A program made the translations under genes and the position numbers. Source: Pseudomonadota bacterium (GTDB lineage Bacteria > Pseudomonadota > Gammaproteobacteria > Steroidobacterales > JBCBZW01). From it: a DNA stretch of 33,925 nucleotides. The stretch is taken from the NCBI GenBank assembly GCA_039815145.1, contig JBCBZW010000048.1, forward strand, positions 1-33,925, written 5' to 3'. The notes beneath the pieces are model-generated. The model was not told where the DNA came from. It did not search any database and saw only the letters and a program-made list of their open reading frames with translations. Positions 13,183 to 23,520 of the stretch are shown here, piece after piece; position 1 is the first letter of the stretch, and each line of letters begins with the position of its first letter.

Positions 13183-15870
<2,688 letters not shown>

Positions 15871-15962
15871 GGTCCTCGGGTCCCGCGGCGGCGCGCGCAG
15901 CCGTCCTCCTGGAGATGATACACAGATGCGTCGGCGGCCCGACGCCCATGCTGCGCCTGCGA

Positions 15963-15971
15963 TGCTACTAT
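15963..15971 (+). promoter_or_regulatory. Candidate extended -10 promoter for the glucosylglycerate operon
   Basis: TGC directly precedes TACTAT (15966-15971), an extended -10 arrangement. No convincing -35 box is visible. The expected start point is near 15978, about 65 nt before the TTG start of the kinase gene and 15 nt before a 17-codon upstream frame at 15993. Confidence 0.35.
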
Positions 15972-16042
15972 CCTTCGCCTGGGGGTCGAAACGTGGAGCA
16001 GGCCGTGGTCAACGCCATCGCACGAGTGCAAGAGGGGGCTTC

Positions 16043-17014
16043 TTGAGGGACGCGGCACAGGCCATCCGTGAGGCCGTGGAAAGCCCCGCCATCGCGCGGG
16101 TCATCGAAGAGGAGAAGCTGCCGGAGAGCTACCGCGGCGCCCTGCGCGAGCACATCGCACCTGTCGCCACAGCAATCCTCCGCGCCCTCGACGCGGCATC
16201 GCGACCTCTGCTGATCGGCATCAACGGCTGCCAGGGCAGCGGCAAGTCGACCCTGGCGCGGTTCCTGGCCGTGTTGCTGGAGCAGGCCGGCGGGCTGCGC
16301 TGCCCGGAGGTCTCGATCGACGATCTCTACCTTCCCCGAGCTGATCGAATCGCCCTCGGCCAGCAGGTGCATCCGCTGCTCGCCACGCGCGGGGTGCCCG
16401 GCACGCACGATCTCCCGCTCGGTCGCACCGTGCTTGAACGCTTGCTGTCGCCCTCGCGGGCTGAGGACGTGGCGATTCCGCGGTTTCTGAAGTCCATCGA
16501 CGATCGGGCGCCCGCCGATCAGTGGTCGCGCTGGCAGGGAGCGACCGACGCGGTGCTGTTCGAAGGCTGGTGCGTGGCCTGTACGCCGCAGGAGGCGTCG
16601 GCCCTCGACGAGCCGATCAACGCCCTCGAGGCGGAGGAGGACCGGGACGGTGAATGGCGCCGTTATGTGAATCGCAGCCTTCGCGAGGACTACCCAGCGC
16701 TATTCGGCCCCATCGACTTTCTCGTCTTCCTGCGCGCGCCGTCCTTCGAGTGCGTGCACCAATGGCGGCGCAAGCAGGAGGAGAAGTTGACCCAACGCTT
16801 GCGCGATGAGAACGCGCCGCCCGAGGCGTTCTCCCGGGTGATGAGCAACGCCGAGCTCACCCGCTTCATCCAGCACTACGAGCGGCTCACCCGGCACATG
16901 CTCAGCGATCTCGGCGAGCGCGCCCAGGCCATCATCGATCTGGCCGAGGACCACCGCTTGGTGGGTCATCAGCTACGGGGCAACCCGGGGAGCTCGGGAG
17001 CGACGCATGCCTGA
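16043..17014 (+). CDS. D-glycerate 3-kinase (GLYK-type P-loop kinase)
   Basis: The family phosphorylates D-glycerate with ATP to 3-phosphoglycerate. The 323-residue product has Walker A GCQGSGKS (62-69), then SIDDLYLPRADR and HPLLATRGVPGTHDLPLG, which are characteristic of plant-type GLYK and its bacterial relatives, and FEGWCVA with DFLVFLRAPSFECVHQWRRKQE later. The TTG at 16043 follows AGAGGGGGC and is favoured; an in-frame ATG at 15962 would add a poorly conserved leader. A 17-codon frame (GTG 15993 to TGA 16046) overlaps this start. The gene overlaps the next by 8 bp. With the downstream phosphorylase it would recycle glycerate to central metabolism. Confidence 0.87.
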   Translation: MRDAAQAIREAVESPAIARVIEEEKLPESYRGALREHIAPVATAILRALDAASRPLLIGINGCQGSGKSTLARFLAVLLEQAGGLRCPEVSIDDLYLPRADRIALGQQVHPLLATRGVPGTHDLPLGRTVLERLLSPSRAEDVAIPRFLKSIDDRAPADQWSRWQGATDAVLFEGWCVACTPQEASALDEPINALEAEEDRDGEWRRYVNRSLREDYPALFGPIDFLVFLRAPSFECVHQWRRKQEEKLTQRLRDENAPPEAFSRVMSNAELTRFIQHYERLTRHMLSDLGERAQAIIDLAEDHRLVGHQLRGNPGSSGATHA

Positions 17015-17861
17015 GCCGCTGGTGGTCTACACGGACCTCGACGGCACCCTGCTCGACCATTTCACCTATGACTGGTCGCCGGCGGCACCGGTGTTGGATC
17101 GCCTGGCGCGCCTCGGCGTCCCCGTGGTGATGGTCACCAGCAAAGCGCGAGGTGAGGTGTCTGAGCTCGCACAAGCGCTCGACAACCCCCATCCCTACAT
17201 CGTCGAGAACGGCGCCATCTCGGTGATTCCCGCGGGCTACTTCGGCGAGGCGGGCATCCACCCTCGCGGGCCGCGCGAGCCCGTGGACGTGCAGTATCAC
17301 GGCCCGACCCGCGCGCAACTCACGGACCAGATCCTGCAGTTGCGCGAGCGTCTCGGCATCAAGTTCGAGACCTTCGGGGAGCTCGGCTACGGCGGCATCG
17401 CCGAGCACACGGGCTTGTCTTTGCAGGCGGCGGCCAAGGCCGATGATCGCGAGGCATCCGAGCCTTTGCTCTGGCTCGAGGAGGATCCTATCGAGCTAGT
17501 GCGTTTTCGCCAGGCCTTGCGTGAGCGCGACCTCAATTGCGTACGTGGCGGACGCTTCGTGCACGTGCTCGGCCCCGTGGACAAGGCCCGCTCCGTGGCC
17601 ATGATGCACGGCCAGTACGAGCGTCGCCTGGCCCGGGCGCCGCGGCGGGTGGTGCTGGGCGACGGGCCCAACGACCTTGCCATGTTGGGGCAGGCGGATG
17701 TGGCCGTGGTGATCCCCGGGCATCATGATCAGGACATGACGCTGCCGGAGGGCGCCCGCGCCGAGGTGCTGCGACCGTCGCACGCCGGGCCCAAGGGGTG
17801 GGCGGAGGCGATGGAAGACGTGCTAGAACGTTACGGATACGACGAGACTTCAGGGGAGTAG
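17007..17861 (+). CDS. Glucosyl-/mannosyl-3-phosphoglycerate phosphatase (HAD superfamily)
   Basis: This 284-residue HAD-IIB phosphatase of the mannosyl-3-phosphoglycerate phosphatase/YedP type has motif I DLDGTLL (nucleophile Asp10, acid/base Asp12), motif II VMVTSKARGEV and motif IV GDGPNDLAML. The cap segment contains YIVENGAI, typical of the family. It removes phosphate from glucosyl-3-phosphoglycerate to give glucosylglycerate. The glucosyl (not mannosyl) assignment rests on the synthase encoded 6 bp downstream. No gene for mannosyl-3-phosphoglycerate synthase is seen. Confidence 0.88.
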   Translation: MPEPLVVYTDLDGTLLDHFTYDWSPAAPVLDRLARLGVPVVMVTSKARGEVSELAQALDNPHPYIVENGAISVIPAGYFGEAGIHPRGPREPVDVQYHGPTRAQLTDQILQLRERLGIKFETFGELGYGGIAEHTGLSLQAAAKADDREASEPLLWLEEDPIELVRFRQALRERDLNCVRGGRFVHVLGPVDKARSVAMMHGQYERRLARAPRRVVLGDGPNDLAMLGQADVAVVIPGHHDQDMTLPEGARAEVLRPSHAGPKGWAEAMEDVLERYGYDETSGE

Positions 17862-17867
17862 AGGGAC

Positions 17868-19106
17868 TTGGCCGATTTTCATCAGAACGGGACCGTCACC
17901 ACGCTGCACAACTTGACGCGCAGGCCCGTGGAGTACGTCGAGGCGGATCTCCAGCGCTTCTCCCGCTATCGCCCTCTCGGCCTGGTGCTGCCGTCGCTGT
18001 ACTCCGAGCTGCAGCAACCGGCCCTGGCCAACATCGTCGACGAGCTGACCCACGTGAACTACCTGAACCAGGTGGTGATCGGCCTCGACCGCGCCAACGA
18101 GCTGCAGTACCGCGAAGCCCTGCGCTACTTCGGACGACTCCCCCAACACCACCGCGTGCTGTGGAACGAGGGCCCACGCCTGCAAGCGATCGACGCCCAG
18201 CTGCGCCGCGAAGGGCTCGCGCCCACGGAGCTCGGCAAGGGCCGCAACGTCTGGTACTGCTACGGCTACGTGCTGGCCACCGGCATGGCGGAGAGCATCG
18301 CCCTGCACGATTGCGACATCGTCACCTACGATCGCAGCCTGCTCGCGCGCCTGTTGTACCCCGTGGCGAACTCGAGCTTCAGCTATGAGTTCTGTAAGGG
18401 CTACTACGCGCGCACGTCCACCTCAGCCATGAACGGCCGCGTGAGCCGTCTGTTGGTCACGCCCATGATCCGCGCCCTGAAGACGGTGTGCGGCAGCAGT
18501 GAATTCCTCGATTACCTGGATAGCTTCCGTTACCCCTTGGCCGGTGAGTTCAGCCTGCGCAAGGACGTGATCCAGGATCTGCGCATCCCGTCGGACTGGG
18601 GCCTTGAGATCGGCGTGCTCAGCGAGATGGCGCGCAACTACGCCAACAACCGTATCTGTCAGGCGGACATCGCCGATCGCTACGACCACAAGCACCAGGT
18701 GCTGAGCCCCGAGGACGCCTCGAAGGGGCTGTCGAAGATGAGCATCGACATCATGAAGGCCTTCTTCCGCAAGCTCGCCACCCAGGGCGAGACCTTCTCG
18801 ATGGATCGCTTCCGCACCATCAAGGCGACCTACTTCCGCATCGCCCTGGACTTCATCGAGACCTATCAGAACGATGCCCTGTTCAACGGTCTTCGCTACG
18901 ACCGCCACCAGGAAGAGACGGCGGTGGAGATGTTCGCGAGTAACGTGATGGCCGCGGGCGACTACTTCCTGCGCAACCCGGAAGAGGCGCCGTTCATCGC
19001 GCCGTGGAACCGCGTGATCAACGCTATCCCCGACATTCTGGAGCAGCTTGCCGAGGCGGTCGAAGAGGACACGATCGAGTTCCGCGAGGGGGAGGGCGCC
19101 GCGTGA
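17868..19106 (+). CDS. Glucosyl-3-phosphoglycerate synthase (GT81-type)
   Basis: This retaining glycosyltransferase transfers glucose from an NDP-glucose donor to 3-phospho-D-glycerate. The 412-residue product begins at TTG 17868, behind GGGGAGTAGAGGGA. It carries LVLPSLYSELQQPALANIVDEL, GKGRNVWYCYGYVLA and the metal/nucleotide-binding DCD at 148-150 (HDCDIVTYDRSLL), followed by FSYEFCKGYYAR and GLEIGVLSEM, all in the order expected for bacterial GpgS. A TTG start in the middle of an operon would lower translation relative to its neighbours. The stop codon overlaps the next start (GTGA). Confidence 0.9.
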   Translation: MADFHQNGTVTTLHNLTRRPVEYVEADLQRFSRYRPLGLVLPSLYSELQQPALANIVDELTHVNYLNQVVIGLDRANELQYREALRYFGRLPQHHRVLWNEGPRLQAIDAQLRREGLAPTELGKGRNVWYCYGYVLATGMAESIALHDCDIVTYDRSLLARLLYPVANSSFSYEFCKGYYARTSTSAMNGRVSRLLVTPMIRALKTVCGSSEFLDYLDSFRYPLAGEFSLRKDVIQDLRIPSDWGLEIGVLSEMARNYANNRICQADIADRYDHKHQVLSPEDASKGLSKMSIDIMKAFFRKLATQGETFSMDRFRTIKATYFRIALDFIETYQNDALFNGLRYDRHQEETAVEMFASNVMAAGDYFLRNPEEAPFIAPWNRVINAIPDILEQLAEAVEEDTIEFREGEGAA

Positions 19107-20905
19107 GCTCGACCTTGCCACCGCGCAGCGCGGGCGGCGGGGCCAGGGGCGAACTGCTGGCACGCGTCCAACAGCACCTCTCGGTCATCTACCCCGACCT
19201 CGATGCCATCACCTGGGGCCATCGCCTGATCGAAGCGATCGGTGGTGATTCCGATGCCCTGTCCGTGCCGCAGCCGTTCGTGAACCACTGGGACGAGCGC
19301 GACGCGATCATCATCACCTACGGCAACTCGGTAACCCGCGAGGGTGAAGCGCCCCTGCAGACCCTGCGACGCTTCCTCAACGATCACCTGTCGGATGCGG
19401 TGAGCGGCGTGCACATCCTGCCGTTCTTCCCCTACAGCTCCGACGATGGGTTCGCCGTCATCAACTACCTGCAGGTGAACGACGCCCTAGGCGATTGGGA
19501 GGATATCCGCGAGATCGCCGAGGAGTTCGACCTGATGGCGGACCTCGTCATCAACCACGCCTCGGCGCGCTCGGGCTGGTTCGAGAACTTCAAGAAGCGG
19601 ATCGACCCGGGCCTGAACTACTTCGTCGAGGTGGACCCGGACTCGGACGTCTCGATGGTCGTGCGACCACGGCCGTCGCCGCTCCTGCAGACCGTCCAGA
19701 CCCTCGACGGCGAGCGCACTGTCTGGTGCACCTTCGGCCCGGACCAGGTGGACCTGAACTTCGCCAACCCCCAGGTGCTTTGGGAGTTCGTGAATATCTT
19801 AGGTCGCTACCTCGATGTGGGCGTGCGCACCTTGCGCATGGATGCCGTGGCTTTCCTGTGGAAGGAGATCGGCACCCCTTGCATCCACTTGCGTCGCACC
19901 CACGAGATCATCAAGTTGCTGCGCACGCTGGCGGAGTTCCGCCGACCCGACGTGCTGGTGATCACCGAGACCAACGTCCCCAACCGCGACAACCTGACTT
20001 ACTTCGGCAACGCCAACGAAGCCCACGCCATCTACAACTTCTCCCTGCCGCCGCTGCTCGTGCACACCATGCTGAGCGGCAACTGCCGGCACCTGAAGAC
20101 CTGGATGATGAGCATGCCGCCGGCCCAGCACGGCACCACGTACCTTAACTTCATCGCCTCCCACGACGGCATCGGCCTGCGTCCCGCGGAAGGGTTGCTG
20201 AGCGATGAGGAGCTGGCCAGCATGATCGACGCCTTGCGTGCCTACGGCGCCGAGGTGTCGATGCGAGCGGGGCCCGATGGGGCGCTCAAGCCCTACGAGG
20301 TGAACATCTCGCTGATCGACGCGATGGCGGGCACGGCTGCCGGTCAACGCGATCGCTGGCAGTTCGAGCGCTTCATCTGCATGCACCTCATGATGCTGGG
20401 CCTCGAGGGCATTCCGGCGATCTACGTGCACAGCTTCCTGGCGACGCCTAACGATCACGACCTGTTCGCGCGCTCCGGGCGGGCGCGCTCGATCAACCGA
20501 CACCAGTGGCCGGAGGAGGAGCTGAGCGAGCAGCTCGCGGACGAGACGAGCCTGCACGCCCGCGTGCTGCGCGAACTGTCCCGCTCGCTGGCGATCCGTC
20601 GCCGGCAACCCGCCTTCCACCCCAACGCCACCCAGTTCACCCTGCACTTGGGGTTGGAGCTGTTCGCCTACTTTCGCCAATCGACGGACCGGTCGCAGAG
20701 CATCTTCTGTGTTTACAACGTGACCGATCGCCCCCAAGTCCTGTCCCTGGCAGACGTGAACCTGATCAGCACCGATCAGTGGATCGACCTGCTCAGTGGA
20801 ACGCAGGTGACGGCACTGGCCGGTGAGATGACCCTCGCGCCCTACCAGGGGATCTGGCTGTCGAACCGCGCCTTCGGCGTGGCCTTGCCAGGGCTGCGCG
20901 CCTAG
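19103..20905 (+). CDS. GH13_18 phosphorylase, probably glucosylglycerate phosphorylase
   Basis: The 600-residue protein belongs to the sucrose-phosphorylase branch of GH13. It has LPFFPYSSDDGFAV near the N-terminus, the catalytic nucleophile Asp247 (RMDAVAFLWKE), acid/base Glu289 (ITETNVPN) and the transition-state Asp355 (SHDGIGLRP). WKEIGTPCIHLRRTHE after the nucleophile is typical of glucosylglycerate and related phosphorylases more than of sucrose phosphorylase. The predicted reaction is glucosylglycerate plus phosphate giving glucose 1-phosphate and D-glycerate. Context with GpgS, the phosphatase and glycerate kinase strongly supports this, but specificity is inferred. The GTG at 19103 overlaps the GpgS stop. 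Confidence 0.87.
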   Translation: MSSTLPPRSAGGGARGELLARVQQHLSVIYPDLDAITWGHRLIEAIGGDSDALSVPQPFVNHWDERDAIIITYGNSVTREGEAPLQTLRRFLNDHLSDAVSGVHILPFFPYSSDDGFAVINYLQVNDALGDWEDIREIAEEFDLMADLVINHASARSGWFENFKKRIDPGLNYFVEVDPDSDVSMVVRPRPSPLLQTVQTLDGERTVWCTFGPDQVDLNFANPQVLWEFVNILGRYLDVGVRTLRMDAVAFLWKEIGTPCIHLRRTHEIIKLLRTLAEFRRPDVLVITETNVPNRDNLTYFGNANEAHAIYNFSLPPLLVHTMLSGNCRHLKTWMMSMPPAQHGTTYLNFIASHDGIGLRPAEGLLSDEELASMIDALRAYGAEVSMRAGPDGALKPYEVNISLIDAMAGTAAGQRDRWQFERFICMHLMMLGLEGIPAIYVHSFLATPNDHDLFARSGRARSINRHQWPEEELSEQLADETSLHARVLRELSRSLAIRRRQPAFHPNATQFTLHLGLELFAYFRQSTDRSQSIFCVYNVTDRPQVLSLADVNLISTDQWIDLLSGTQVTALAGEMTLAPYQGIWLSNRAFGVALPGLRA

Positions 20906-20976: not shown

Positions 20977-21006
20977 TTGACCCCCTTCGATGCCCCGCAG
21001 CATACT
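20977..21006 (+). promoter_or_regulatory. Candidate promoter of the thrS-infC-rpmI-rplT-pheST operon
   Basis: TTGACC (20977-20982, 5 of 6) and CATACT (21001-21006, 4 of 6) are 18 bp apart. The predicted leader before the thrS GTG is only about 40 nt, which is too short for the long tRNA-mimicking operator known from E. coli thrS. Confidence 0.5.
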
Positions 21007-21052: not shown

Positions 21053-22978
21053 GTGCCCGTCATCACCTTGCCCGACGGCAGCCAGCGCAGCTATGACCAT
21101 GCGGTCAGCGCAGCGGATGTGGCTGCTGACATCGGCCCCGGCCTCGCCAAGGCCGCGGTCGCCGCGAAGCTGAACGGACGCCTGGTGGACACCTCCACGA
21201 CCATCACCGAGGACGCCGACCTGGCGCTGGTCACTGCAAAGGACGACGACGGCCTCGAGGTCATTCGCCACTCGACGGCGCACCTCCTGGCGCAGGCCGT
21301 GAAGAGCCTCCACCCCGAGGCCCAGGTCACCATCGGCCCGGTCATCGATGACGGCTTCTATTACGACTTCGCCTACGACCGCCCCTTCACGCCGGAAGAC
21401 CTCGACGCCATCGAGCAGAAGATGGCCGAGATCGCGGGCGAAGACCTCGCCGTGCAGCGCGAGGTGATGGAGCGCGGGGCGGCGGTGGAGTACTTCCACG
21501 GCCTTGGCGAGGAGTACAAGGCGAAGATCATCGCCGACCTGCCGGAGGAGGAGGTCATCTCCGTCTACGGCCAGGGCGACTTCAAAGACCTGTGTCGCGG
21601 GCCGCACGTGCCGAGTACCGGCCACCTGAAGGCCTTCAAGCTGACCAAGGTCTCGGGCGCCTATTGGCGCGGTGATGCCAGCAACGAGCAGCTGCAGCGC
21701 ATCTACGGCACCGCCTGGCCGGACAAGAAGCAGCTCAAGGCCTACCTCACGCGCCTGCGCGAAGCGGAGAAGCGCGATCACCGGCGCATCGGCAAGGACC
21801 TCGACCTGTTCTCCATCCAGGAGGATGCGGGCGGTGGCCTCGTGTTCTGGCATCCCAAGGGCGCGCGCATGCGCCGGGTGATGGAGGACTACTGGCGCGA
21901 CCGTCACATCGAGGCCGGCTACGAGCTGTTGTACACGCCCCACATCGCCCACGAGAGCCTCTGGTACACCTCGGGCCACAAGGATTTCTACGGCGAATCC
22001 ATGTACAAGCCGATGGAGGACGACGACCAGCTCTACCAGCTCAAGCCGATGAACTGCCCGTTCCACATCCTGGTGTACAAGGATCGCCTGCGCTCGTACC
22101 GCGAGCTGCCGATCCGCTGGGGCGAGCTCGGCACCGTGTATCGCCACGAGATGTCCGGCGCCCTGCACGGGCTCATGCGCGTGCGTGGTTTCACCCAGGA
22201 TGATGCGCACCATTTCTGCAGCGAAGAGCAGATCGAGGACGAAATCCTCGCCATCCTGGACCTGAACCTGACCATGCTGCAGGACTTCGGTTTTGAGAAG
22301 TTCGAGGTCAATCTCTCCACTAAGCCTGAAAAAGCCGTCGGATCGCCGGAGATCTGGGAGCGCGCCACCGCCGGCCTGCGCGGCGCCCTGGAGCGCAAGG
22401 GGCTCGAGTACGTGGTGGACGAGGGCGGCGGCGCCTTCTACGGGCCGAAGATCGACCTGAAGATCGAAGACGCCATCGGCCGCAAGTGGCAATGCTCGAC
22501 GATCCAGCTCGATTTCAACCTGCCCGAGCGCTTCGACATGACCTACGTGGCCGAGGGCGGGGATCGCAAGCGACCGATCATGATCCACCGCGCGCTGCTG
22601 GGCTCCTTGGAGCGTTTCTTCGGTGTGCTCATCGAGCACTTCGAGGGCCGATTCCCCACCTGGCTGGCGCCCGTGCAGGCGGTGCTGATGACGATTACCG
22701 AGCGCCACGATGGCTTCGCCGAGGAGCTCCGCGAACACTTTAAAAATCAGGGTCTTCGCGTTGAGGCAGACTTGAGAAACGAGAAGATCGGCTTTAAAAT
22801 TCGAGAACATACCTTGCAGCGGGTGCCCTACCTGCTGGTCATTGGTGATCGCGAAGTCGAAACCCGAAGCCTTTCGGTGCGTACGCGCGCCGGGAAGGAT
22901 CTCGGGTCTTTGTCTGTCGACGATTTTACGCAACACCTGGCTCGCGAAGCGGCAGAGCGCCTTCCCGAGCCGGCTTGA
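21053..22978 (+). CDS. thrS: Threonine--tRNA ligase
   Basis: The class II synthetase charges tRNA-Thr and edits mis-charged Ser-tRNA. Its 641 residues nearly equal the E. coli length. The N-terminal TGS domain ([11 protein letters not shown]) is followed by the editing domain with [11 protein letters not shown] and [12 protein letters not shown]. The catalytic core has the zinc-ligand region PMNCPFHI, motif 2 [30 protein letters not shown], motif 3 and a C-terminal anticodon-binding domain. The start is GTG 21053 after GAGAGG. It heads the translation operon; infC begins 14 bp after its stop. Confidence 0.97.
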
Positions 22979-22992
22979 CGGAGTAAGTTTCT

Positions 22993-23520
22993 ATCGCACA
23001 GGGCGGCAACAAGCGCGCGCGGCGCAACGCTGAGATCGAAGCTCGGGAAGTCCGAGTGATCGATCAGGAAGGCGAGCAGGCGGGCGTCATGGCAGCACGA
23101 GACGCATTGCGCATGGCGCAAGAGGCGGGGTTGGATCTGGTTGAGGTGTCACCGAATGCGGATCCTCCCGTTTGCCGGATCATGGATTACGGCAAGTTCG
23201 ACTTCGAACGCAAGAAGCGCGAGCGCGAGGCTAAGAAGAAGACTACCCATACGCAGATCAAGGAAGTGAAGTTCCGGCCGAACACAGACACCGGCGACTA
23301 CGCTGTCAAGCTGCGTAACCTGCGGCGCTTTCTAGAGCACGGAGACAAGGCCAAAGTCACCGTGCGCTTTCGCGGCAGGGAAATGGCCCACCAGGACATC
23401 GGACGACGTGTGCTGGAGCGGGTGAGGGAAGATCTCATCGAGTTAGGTACCGTTGAGCAATTCCCGAAGATGGAAGGTCGTCAAATGGTGATGGTGATCT
23501 CGCCGAAGAAGAAGCAGTAG
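22993..23520 (+). CDS. infC: Translation initiation factor IF-3, starting at an AUC codon
   Basis: IF-3 binds the 30S subunit and checks start-codon and initiator-tRNA choice. An in-frame TAA at 22984 bounds the frame upstream. The only start that gives a full protein is ATC at 22993, 9 bp after GGAG (22980-22983), giving 175 residues with N-terminal [23 protein letters not shown]. The conserved ISPNA-like [18 protein letters not shown] and [14 protein letters not shown] stretches and the C-terminal [15 protein letters not shown] are intact. E. coli infC uses AUU; non-AUG starts let IF-3 repress its own translation by rejecting them. A later GTG at 23056 would cut off the conserved N-terminal domain. 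Confidence 0.95.

Follow-up and report, generated by a model that had tools for sequence, protein, structure and literature searches.

Can a bacterium keep the genes for making a solute, for mobilizing it and for salvaging what is left of it in a single operon? The question is raised by positions 16043-20905 of a 33 925-nt stretch of gammaproteobacterial DNA (contig JBCBZW010000048.1 of assembly GCA_039815145.1, order Steroidobacterales; hereafter the window), one contig of a 6.0-Mb genome that is 99.5% complete. We found this interval filled by four open reading frames (ORFs), all on the plus strand, whose predicted products are a GLYK-type D-glycerate kinase, the phosphatase GpgP, the glucosyl-3-phosphoglycerate synthase GpgS and a glucosylglycerate phosphorylase (GGaP). 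The four genes very probably form an operon for the synthesis, phosphorolysis and salvage of glucosylglycerate (GGA).

In the proposed cycle GpgS would join glucose from a nucleotide-glucose to 3-phosphoglycerate, and GpgP would remove the phosphate to give GGA; GGaP would then use phosphate to cleave GGA, releasing glucose 1-phosphate and D-glycerate, and GLYK would rephosphorylate the glycerate to 3-phosphoglycerate. A cell with such a cycle could build a nitrogen-free solute and recover its carbon later. The substrates, the direction of the reactions, co-transcription and the physiological role are what we infer for this locus.

Four predicted enzymes of glucosylglycerate turnover

GGaP, for which Franceus 2017 is said to be the founding paper, is the predicted product of the last gene (19103..20905, plus strand, GTG start, 600 aa). 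The protein matched GH13_18 structures and scored 204 bits with the sucrose phosphorylase model TIGR03852, under the cut-off of 334. Two marks distinguish GGaP from sucrose phosphorylase: a (T/S)ETN motif at the tip of beta-strand 5, and Glu instead of Gln in loop A (PMC7178133, cited, like the other PMC papers below, from an excerpt). Both occur in the window protein (TETN at residues 288-291, the loop-A Glu in KPYEVN); among aligned phosphorylase rows with data TETN was kept in 104 of 106, window included, and the loop-A Glu in 104 of 104. Residues D247, E289 and D355, named in a first-pass annotation of the sequence, are correct for the protein read from 19103 and lie in RTLRMDAV, VITETN and ASHDGI. 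We also observed 39% identity over 570 columns to Escherichia coli YcjM, which carries a GGaP annotation and appears under that name in the table of a review (PMC8950772). These features point to a glucosylglycerate phosphorylase, with GGA as the likely substrate.

The first gene (16043..17014, plus strand, TTG start) encodes the kinase. Its Pfam match was sub-threshold only; in a profile comparison, the best solved relatives were D-glycerate 3-kinases (6ckg, 7.6e-42; 7xpc, 5.6e-36), and the next one, apart from yeast 1odf, was a pantothenate kinase (1.6e-10). The predicted model (pLDDT, the predicted local distance difference test, of 94) had 7xpc, 6ckg and 1odf as top Foldseek matches, with an E-value of 1.5e-16 for 7xpc, and the P-loop positions and RGVPGTH were invariant across 19 rows. 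GLYK-type kinases yield 3-phosphoglycerate, and other types of glycerate kinase yield 2-phosphoglycerate; the product here would be 3-phosphoglycerate. Searches of the genome for GK-I (PF02595, Gly_kinase) and GK-II (MOFRL, PF05161) gave no match; of 14 control genomes, five were positive with the first model and four with the second. With the GLYK profile, the genome yielded the operon gene plus a single match over 47 positions (E-value 8e-4), which we take to be a generic P-loop match. Across the three families searched, no glycerate kinase other than that of the operon was found in the genome, which supports the salvage step.

The phosphatase gene (17007..17861, plus strand, ATG start) overlaps the kinase gene by 8 nt. 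Its product, of HAD-IIB type, scored 224.2 bits with the MPGP family model TIGR01486, above the cut-off of 164.75, and also matched structures 1xvi and 3ztw. The protein scored below the cut-off of every narrower MPGP equivalog model listed, and the assignment stays at family level. DLDGT, TSK and GDGPND, which we take to be phosphatase motifs, were seen by eye in the translation.

The synthase gene (17868..19106, plus strand, TTG start) follows after a 6-nt gap and overlaps the GGaP gene by 4 nt (GTGA). Residues 3-404 of the protein aligned to NF040724, the NCBI model for GpgS, with an E-value of 2e-111. Its AlphaFold model (pLDDT 85.6) had mannosyl-3-phosphoglycerate synthase (MpgS) and GpgS structures as top Foldseek matches (3o3p, 7pdo and 5jqx; E-values 3e-11 to 5e-11; TM-scores of 0.48-0.51 by query length).

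The arrangement given by the first-pass annotation (an 8-nt overlap, a 6-nt gap and a 4-nt overlap) agrees with the coordinates of the four ORFs, and its four enzyme assignments are borne out by family, motif, structure-profile and fold evidence. Its logic of a closed cycle, in which GGA is made, mobilized and salvaged, holds as well, the kinase having no second candidate within the searched families. The overlaps, the shared strand and the recurrence of the cluster suggest a single transcript. A glycogen synthase-family protein is present in the genome, so GGA need not be its sole glucose store; a search for ectoine synthase gave no match in this genome, nor in any control genome, and so carries no information. 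A 36-base hit of the window elsewhere in the genome was taken as chance.

Recurrence of the cluster, gene fusions and known systems

We analysed 112 loci: the window (L001), G001 from a congener, G032, 29 loci from a sample of the class and 80 named loci; L002, L003 (a copy of the window) and two loci from a viral collection were excluded. The named loci were the best 80 of at least 586 stretches encoding relatives, so close relatives and marine genera are over-represented in this sample. A search of relatives found GpgS in 3 of 59 genomes (the window's own, a congener's and that of another member of the order), and the class sample had it in 50 of 369; the 50 include four weak matches (E-values 1.5e-7 to 8.7e-9), one partial match and the window's own.

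All four genes were present in 71 of the 112 loci, three without GLYK in 35 and other subsets in six. As many class loci have just 1.5 kb of flank, we counted apart the 70 evaluable loci with at least 2.2 kb upstream and at least 3.2 kb downstream of GpgS. The order GLYK-GpgP-GpgS-GGaP on one strand was seen in 49 of them, window included; of the others, one had GLYK at the end, one had GGaP convergent and 19 had no GLYK beside the other three genes. Since the same four families sit adjacent in many other genomes, their adjacency in the window is not a matter of chance. Outside the four genes, the most widely shared ORF family (at least 110 aa) occurred in 16 of the 80 named loci, and the member scanned was a DUF1698 methyltransferase. 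Two Woeseiaceae metagenome-assembled genomes (MAGs; L087 and L092) carry the GLYK gene after GGaP instead of at the front.

Packing was tight in many loci, the counts resting on starts guessed by a script: GpgP overlapped GLYK in 45 of 63 same-order unfused pairs, GpgS overlapped GpgP or started within 20 nt after it in 76 of 111 pairs, and GGaP stood likewise to GpgS in 80 of 99 same-strand unfused pairs. In six of the 112 loci (L007, L010, L056, L069, L103 and L112) GLYK and GpgP made one ORF, ∼580-610 codons long in the last four and truncated by the end of the locus in L007 and L010. The kinase-phosphatase fusions were scattered on a GpgS tree, with a parsimony minimum of five changes among 72 rows; this was a quick tree with 38 of 109 forks drawn open. 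The window's relatives on it point to a gammaproteobacterial source. A different fusion, of GpgS and GGaP in one 995-aa ORF (L102:8001-10988), came from a MAG labelled Puniceicoccaceae; ∼15 residues between the two parts belong to neither, and by eye it is not a simple lost stop. A literature search with glucosyl-3-phosphoglycerate and fusion gave no title on such fusions, and we do not claim that they are unreported. The recurrent fusions are, in our opinion, the most useful lead from this analysis: they offer a handle on the role of GGaP in cells that also make GGA, a role called unconfirmed in a 2020 review (PMC7178133).

Two loci from the IMG/VR collection deserve a remark. In L115 phage capsid, portal and integrase genes lie beside a host GpgP-GpgS pair, which we read as a prophage edge; in L116 a single ORF joins an SMC/RecF-type ATPase domain to the latter half of GpgS, which is probably an artefact of chimeric assembly.

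The gene set itself is not new: it is known and common in marine bacteria, and the cycle is known in outline. The window adds another genome, with one glycerate kinase found among the families searched, to a known GGA turnover system that is widespread in marine Gammaproteobacteria. Franceus and Desmet (2020, PMC7178133) noted that GGaP genes often occur together with a gene for glycerate kinase, for GpgS or for GpgP; where they described frequent companions, the window has all four genes contiguous with nearly all junctions overlapping. A 2024 paper describes an operon of Prochlorococcus NATL2A in which GGA is recycled to glucose 1-phosphate and 3-phosphoglycerate (PMC11631117). As described, it resembles the window in co-locating genes for GGA synthesis and recycling, whereas a putative transporter gene adjoins the Prochlorococcus genes and none adjoins ours.

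GpgS, GpgP and GGaP occur together in 198 of 250 Marinobacter isolates (PMC10873239); that paper counts homologues of these three, and its excerpt does not mention the kinase. In our set ten Marinobacter loci (L035-L039, L041-L043, L045 and L046) had the same four genes in the same order as the window, with GpgS 72-74% identical to the window protein and with different flanking genes. The glucosylglycerol system of Marinobacter (PMC10873239) serves a related osmolyte and likewise has a synthesis enzyme beside a GH13_18 phosphorylase gene; however, the synthesis enzyme is a fused phosphatase-synthase of another family, the phosphorylase is a glucosylglycerol phosphorylase, and the substrates are glycerol 3-phosphate and glycerol, with no glycerate kinase involved. 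The ycjM operon of E. coli K-12 shares a GGaP homologue with the window, but its stretch has an ABC transporter and glucoside-modifying enzymes, and no GpgS, GpgP or GLYK is annotated there.

Evidence against a glucosylglycerate operon and alternative readings

Several observations weigh against reading the locus as a GGA synthesis-and-recycling operon. GpgS scored 372.7 bits with NF040724, below the equivalog cut-off of 700, and so the score does not settle its specificity for sugar and sugar nucleotide; the model fold fits MpgS as well as GpgS, with the Rubrobacter MpgS first and GpgS structures close behind. We therefore call the synthase a probable GpgS by homology, fold and context, and not as a member of the NF040724 equivalog. 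The kinase is not an obligatory part of the cluster, given the 19 evaluable loci without an adjoining GLYK. The phosphorylases of two loci, L030 and L040, retain the loop-A Glu but read VEAN or CENN at the TETN position, and these two may differ in specificity. Finally, a scan with the sigma-70 consensus found no promoter before the operon and no terminator behind it, though it did call a weak promoter-like site at 20977, ahead of thrS, and another inside GpgP. For the GLYK-less clusters we selected 10 ORFs, spread over nine of the 19 loci, and their scan gave no alternative glycerate kinase; they were a Cys/Met pyridoxal phosphate enzyme, an OmpA protein, an NMT1-like protein, an MFS transporter, an Fe-S reductase, a thiolase, an ABC ATPase, a CobB/CobQ-like protein, an FAD oxidoreductase and a chemotaxis protein.

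One could suppose that GGaP works mainly in synthesis, giving the cell two routes to GGA (from 3-phosphoglycerate, and from glycerate with glucose 1-phosphate) and leaving the kinase just to prevent a build-up of glycerate. Phosphate usually exceeds glucose 1-phosphate in cells, which favours breakdown, and an adjoining glycerate kinase would remove the acceptor. The reaction is reversible, however, and the affinity for D-glycerate is high (KM 1-5 mM; PMC11009771). On balance we consider a mainly synthetic GGaP improbable. The MPGP family membership of the phosphatase, together with the order of structural matches of the synthase, could also be taken to mean that the cell makes mannosylglycerate, or some other glycerate glycoside, instead of GGA; yet the synthase aligns with the GpgS model along its length, and the phosphorylase bears the marks of GGaP, enzymes that are strict for GGA (PMC11009771), which makes another product highly improbable.

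It is likewise very unlikely that the cluster serves less for endogenous turnover than for taking up and using GGA from outside. External supply was suggested for Prochlorococcus, where the putative transporter gene lies in or beside the GGA operon (PMC11631117), but the window operon has a divergent protein kinase gene on one side and thrS on the other, thus no adjoining transporter gene, and it contains both synthesis genes. Within the preferred reading, a GGA synthesis-and-recycling operon, one may further speculate that the four enzymes form a physical metabolon in which it is metabolites that set the direction, rather than gene expression. We think this unlikely; if true, the fusions would reflect selection for a fixed proportion of synthesis to breakdown within one complex.

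Control of expression, gene starts and flanks

The first-pass annotation had argued that opposing enzymes in one transcript imply control at the protein level or by translation. That conclusion does not follow. Despite co-location of the genes, dark-tolerant Prochlorococcus was depleted in synthesis transcripts and enriched in recycling transcripts (PMC11631117); among the 107 loci having GGaP, seven had it convergent to GpgS; and, as GGaP is reversible, the levels of phosphate and glucose 1-phosphate could set its direction. The TTG start of GpgS, mentioned in the same argument, is indeed present in the window, but it is not conserved: the aligned start codon was ATG in 101, TTG in six and GTG in five of the 112 loci, window included.

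The least certain boundary is the kinase start, as the frame is open upstream with an ATG 27 codons 5′ of the TTG. We favour the TTG because a Shine-Dalgarno-like AAGAGGGGG (16030..16038, plus strand), read in the sequence and kept in congener G001, precedes it. A tentative operon promoter is a block at 15949..15974 (plus strand) with an extended -10-like TGCTACTAT; the block is single copy in the window, was not called by the sigma-70 scan and is identical in G001 at 26 of 26 bases, against a background of 82.7% identity over the aligned 8.1 kb.

Upstream of the operon lies a divergent gene for a Ser/Thr protein kinase with C-terminal TPR repeats (13183-15870, minus strand, start at 15870), and downstream are thrS at 21053 and infC at 23056; G001 has the identical four-gene layout with the same neighbours. 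We dropped the protein kinase gene as a candidate regulator: though kept in G001, it had a related ORF in only one (L072) of the 80 named loci. A 43-aa ORF at 15915-16046 was also dropped, as an indel shifts its frame in G001 (by eye). Upstream of the candidate -10, at 15928-15945, we saw by eye an inverted repeat, GCGTCGG-CGGC-CCGACGC, which has a 6-bp form in G001.

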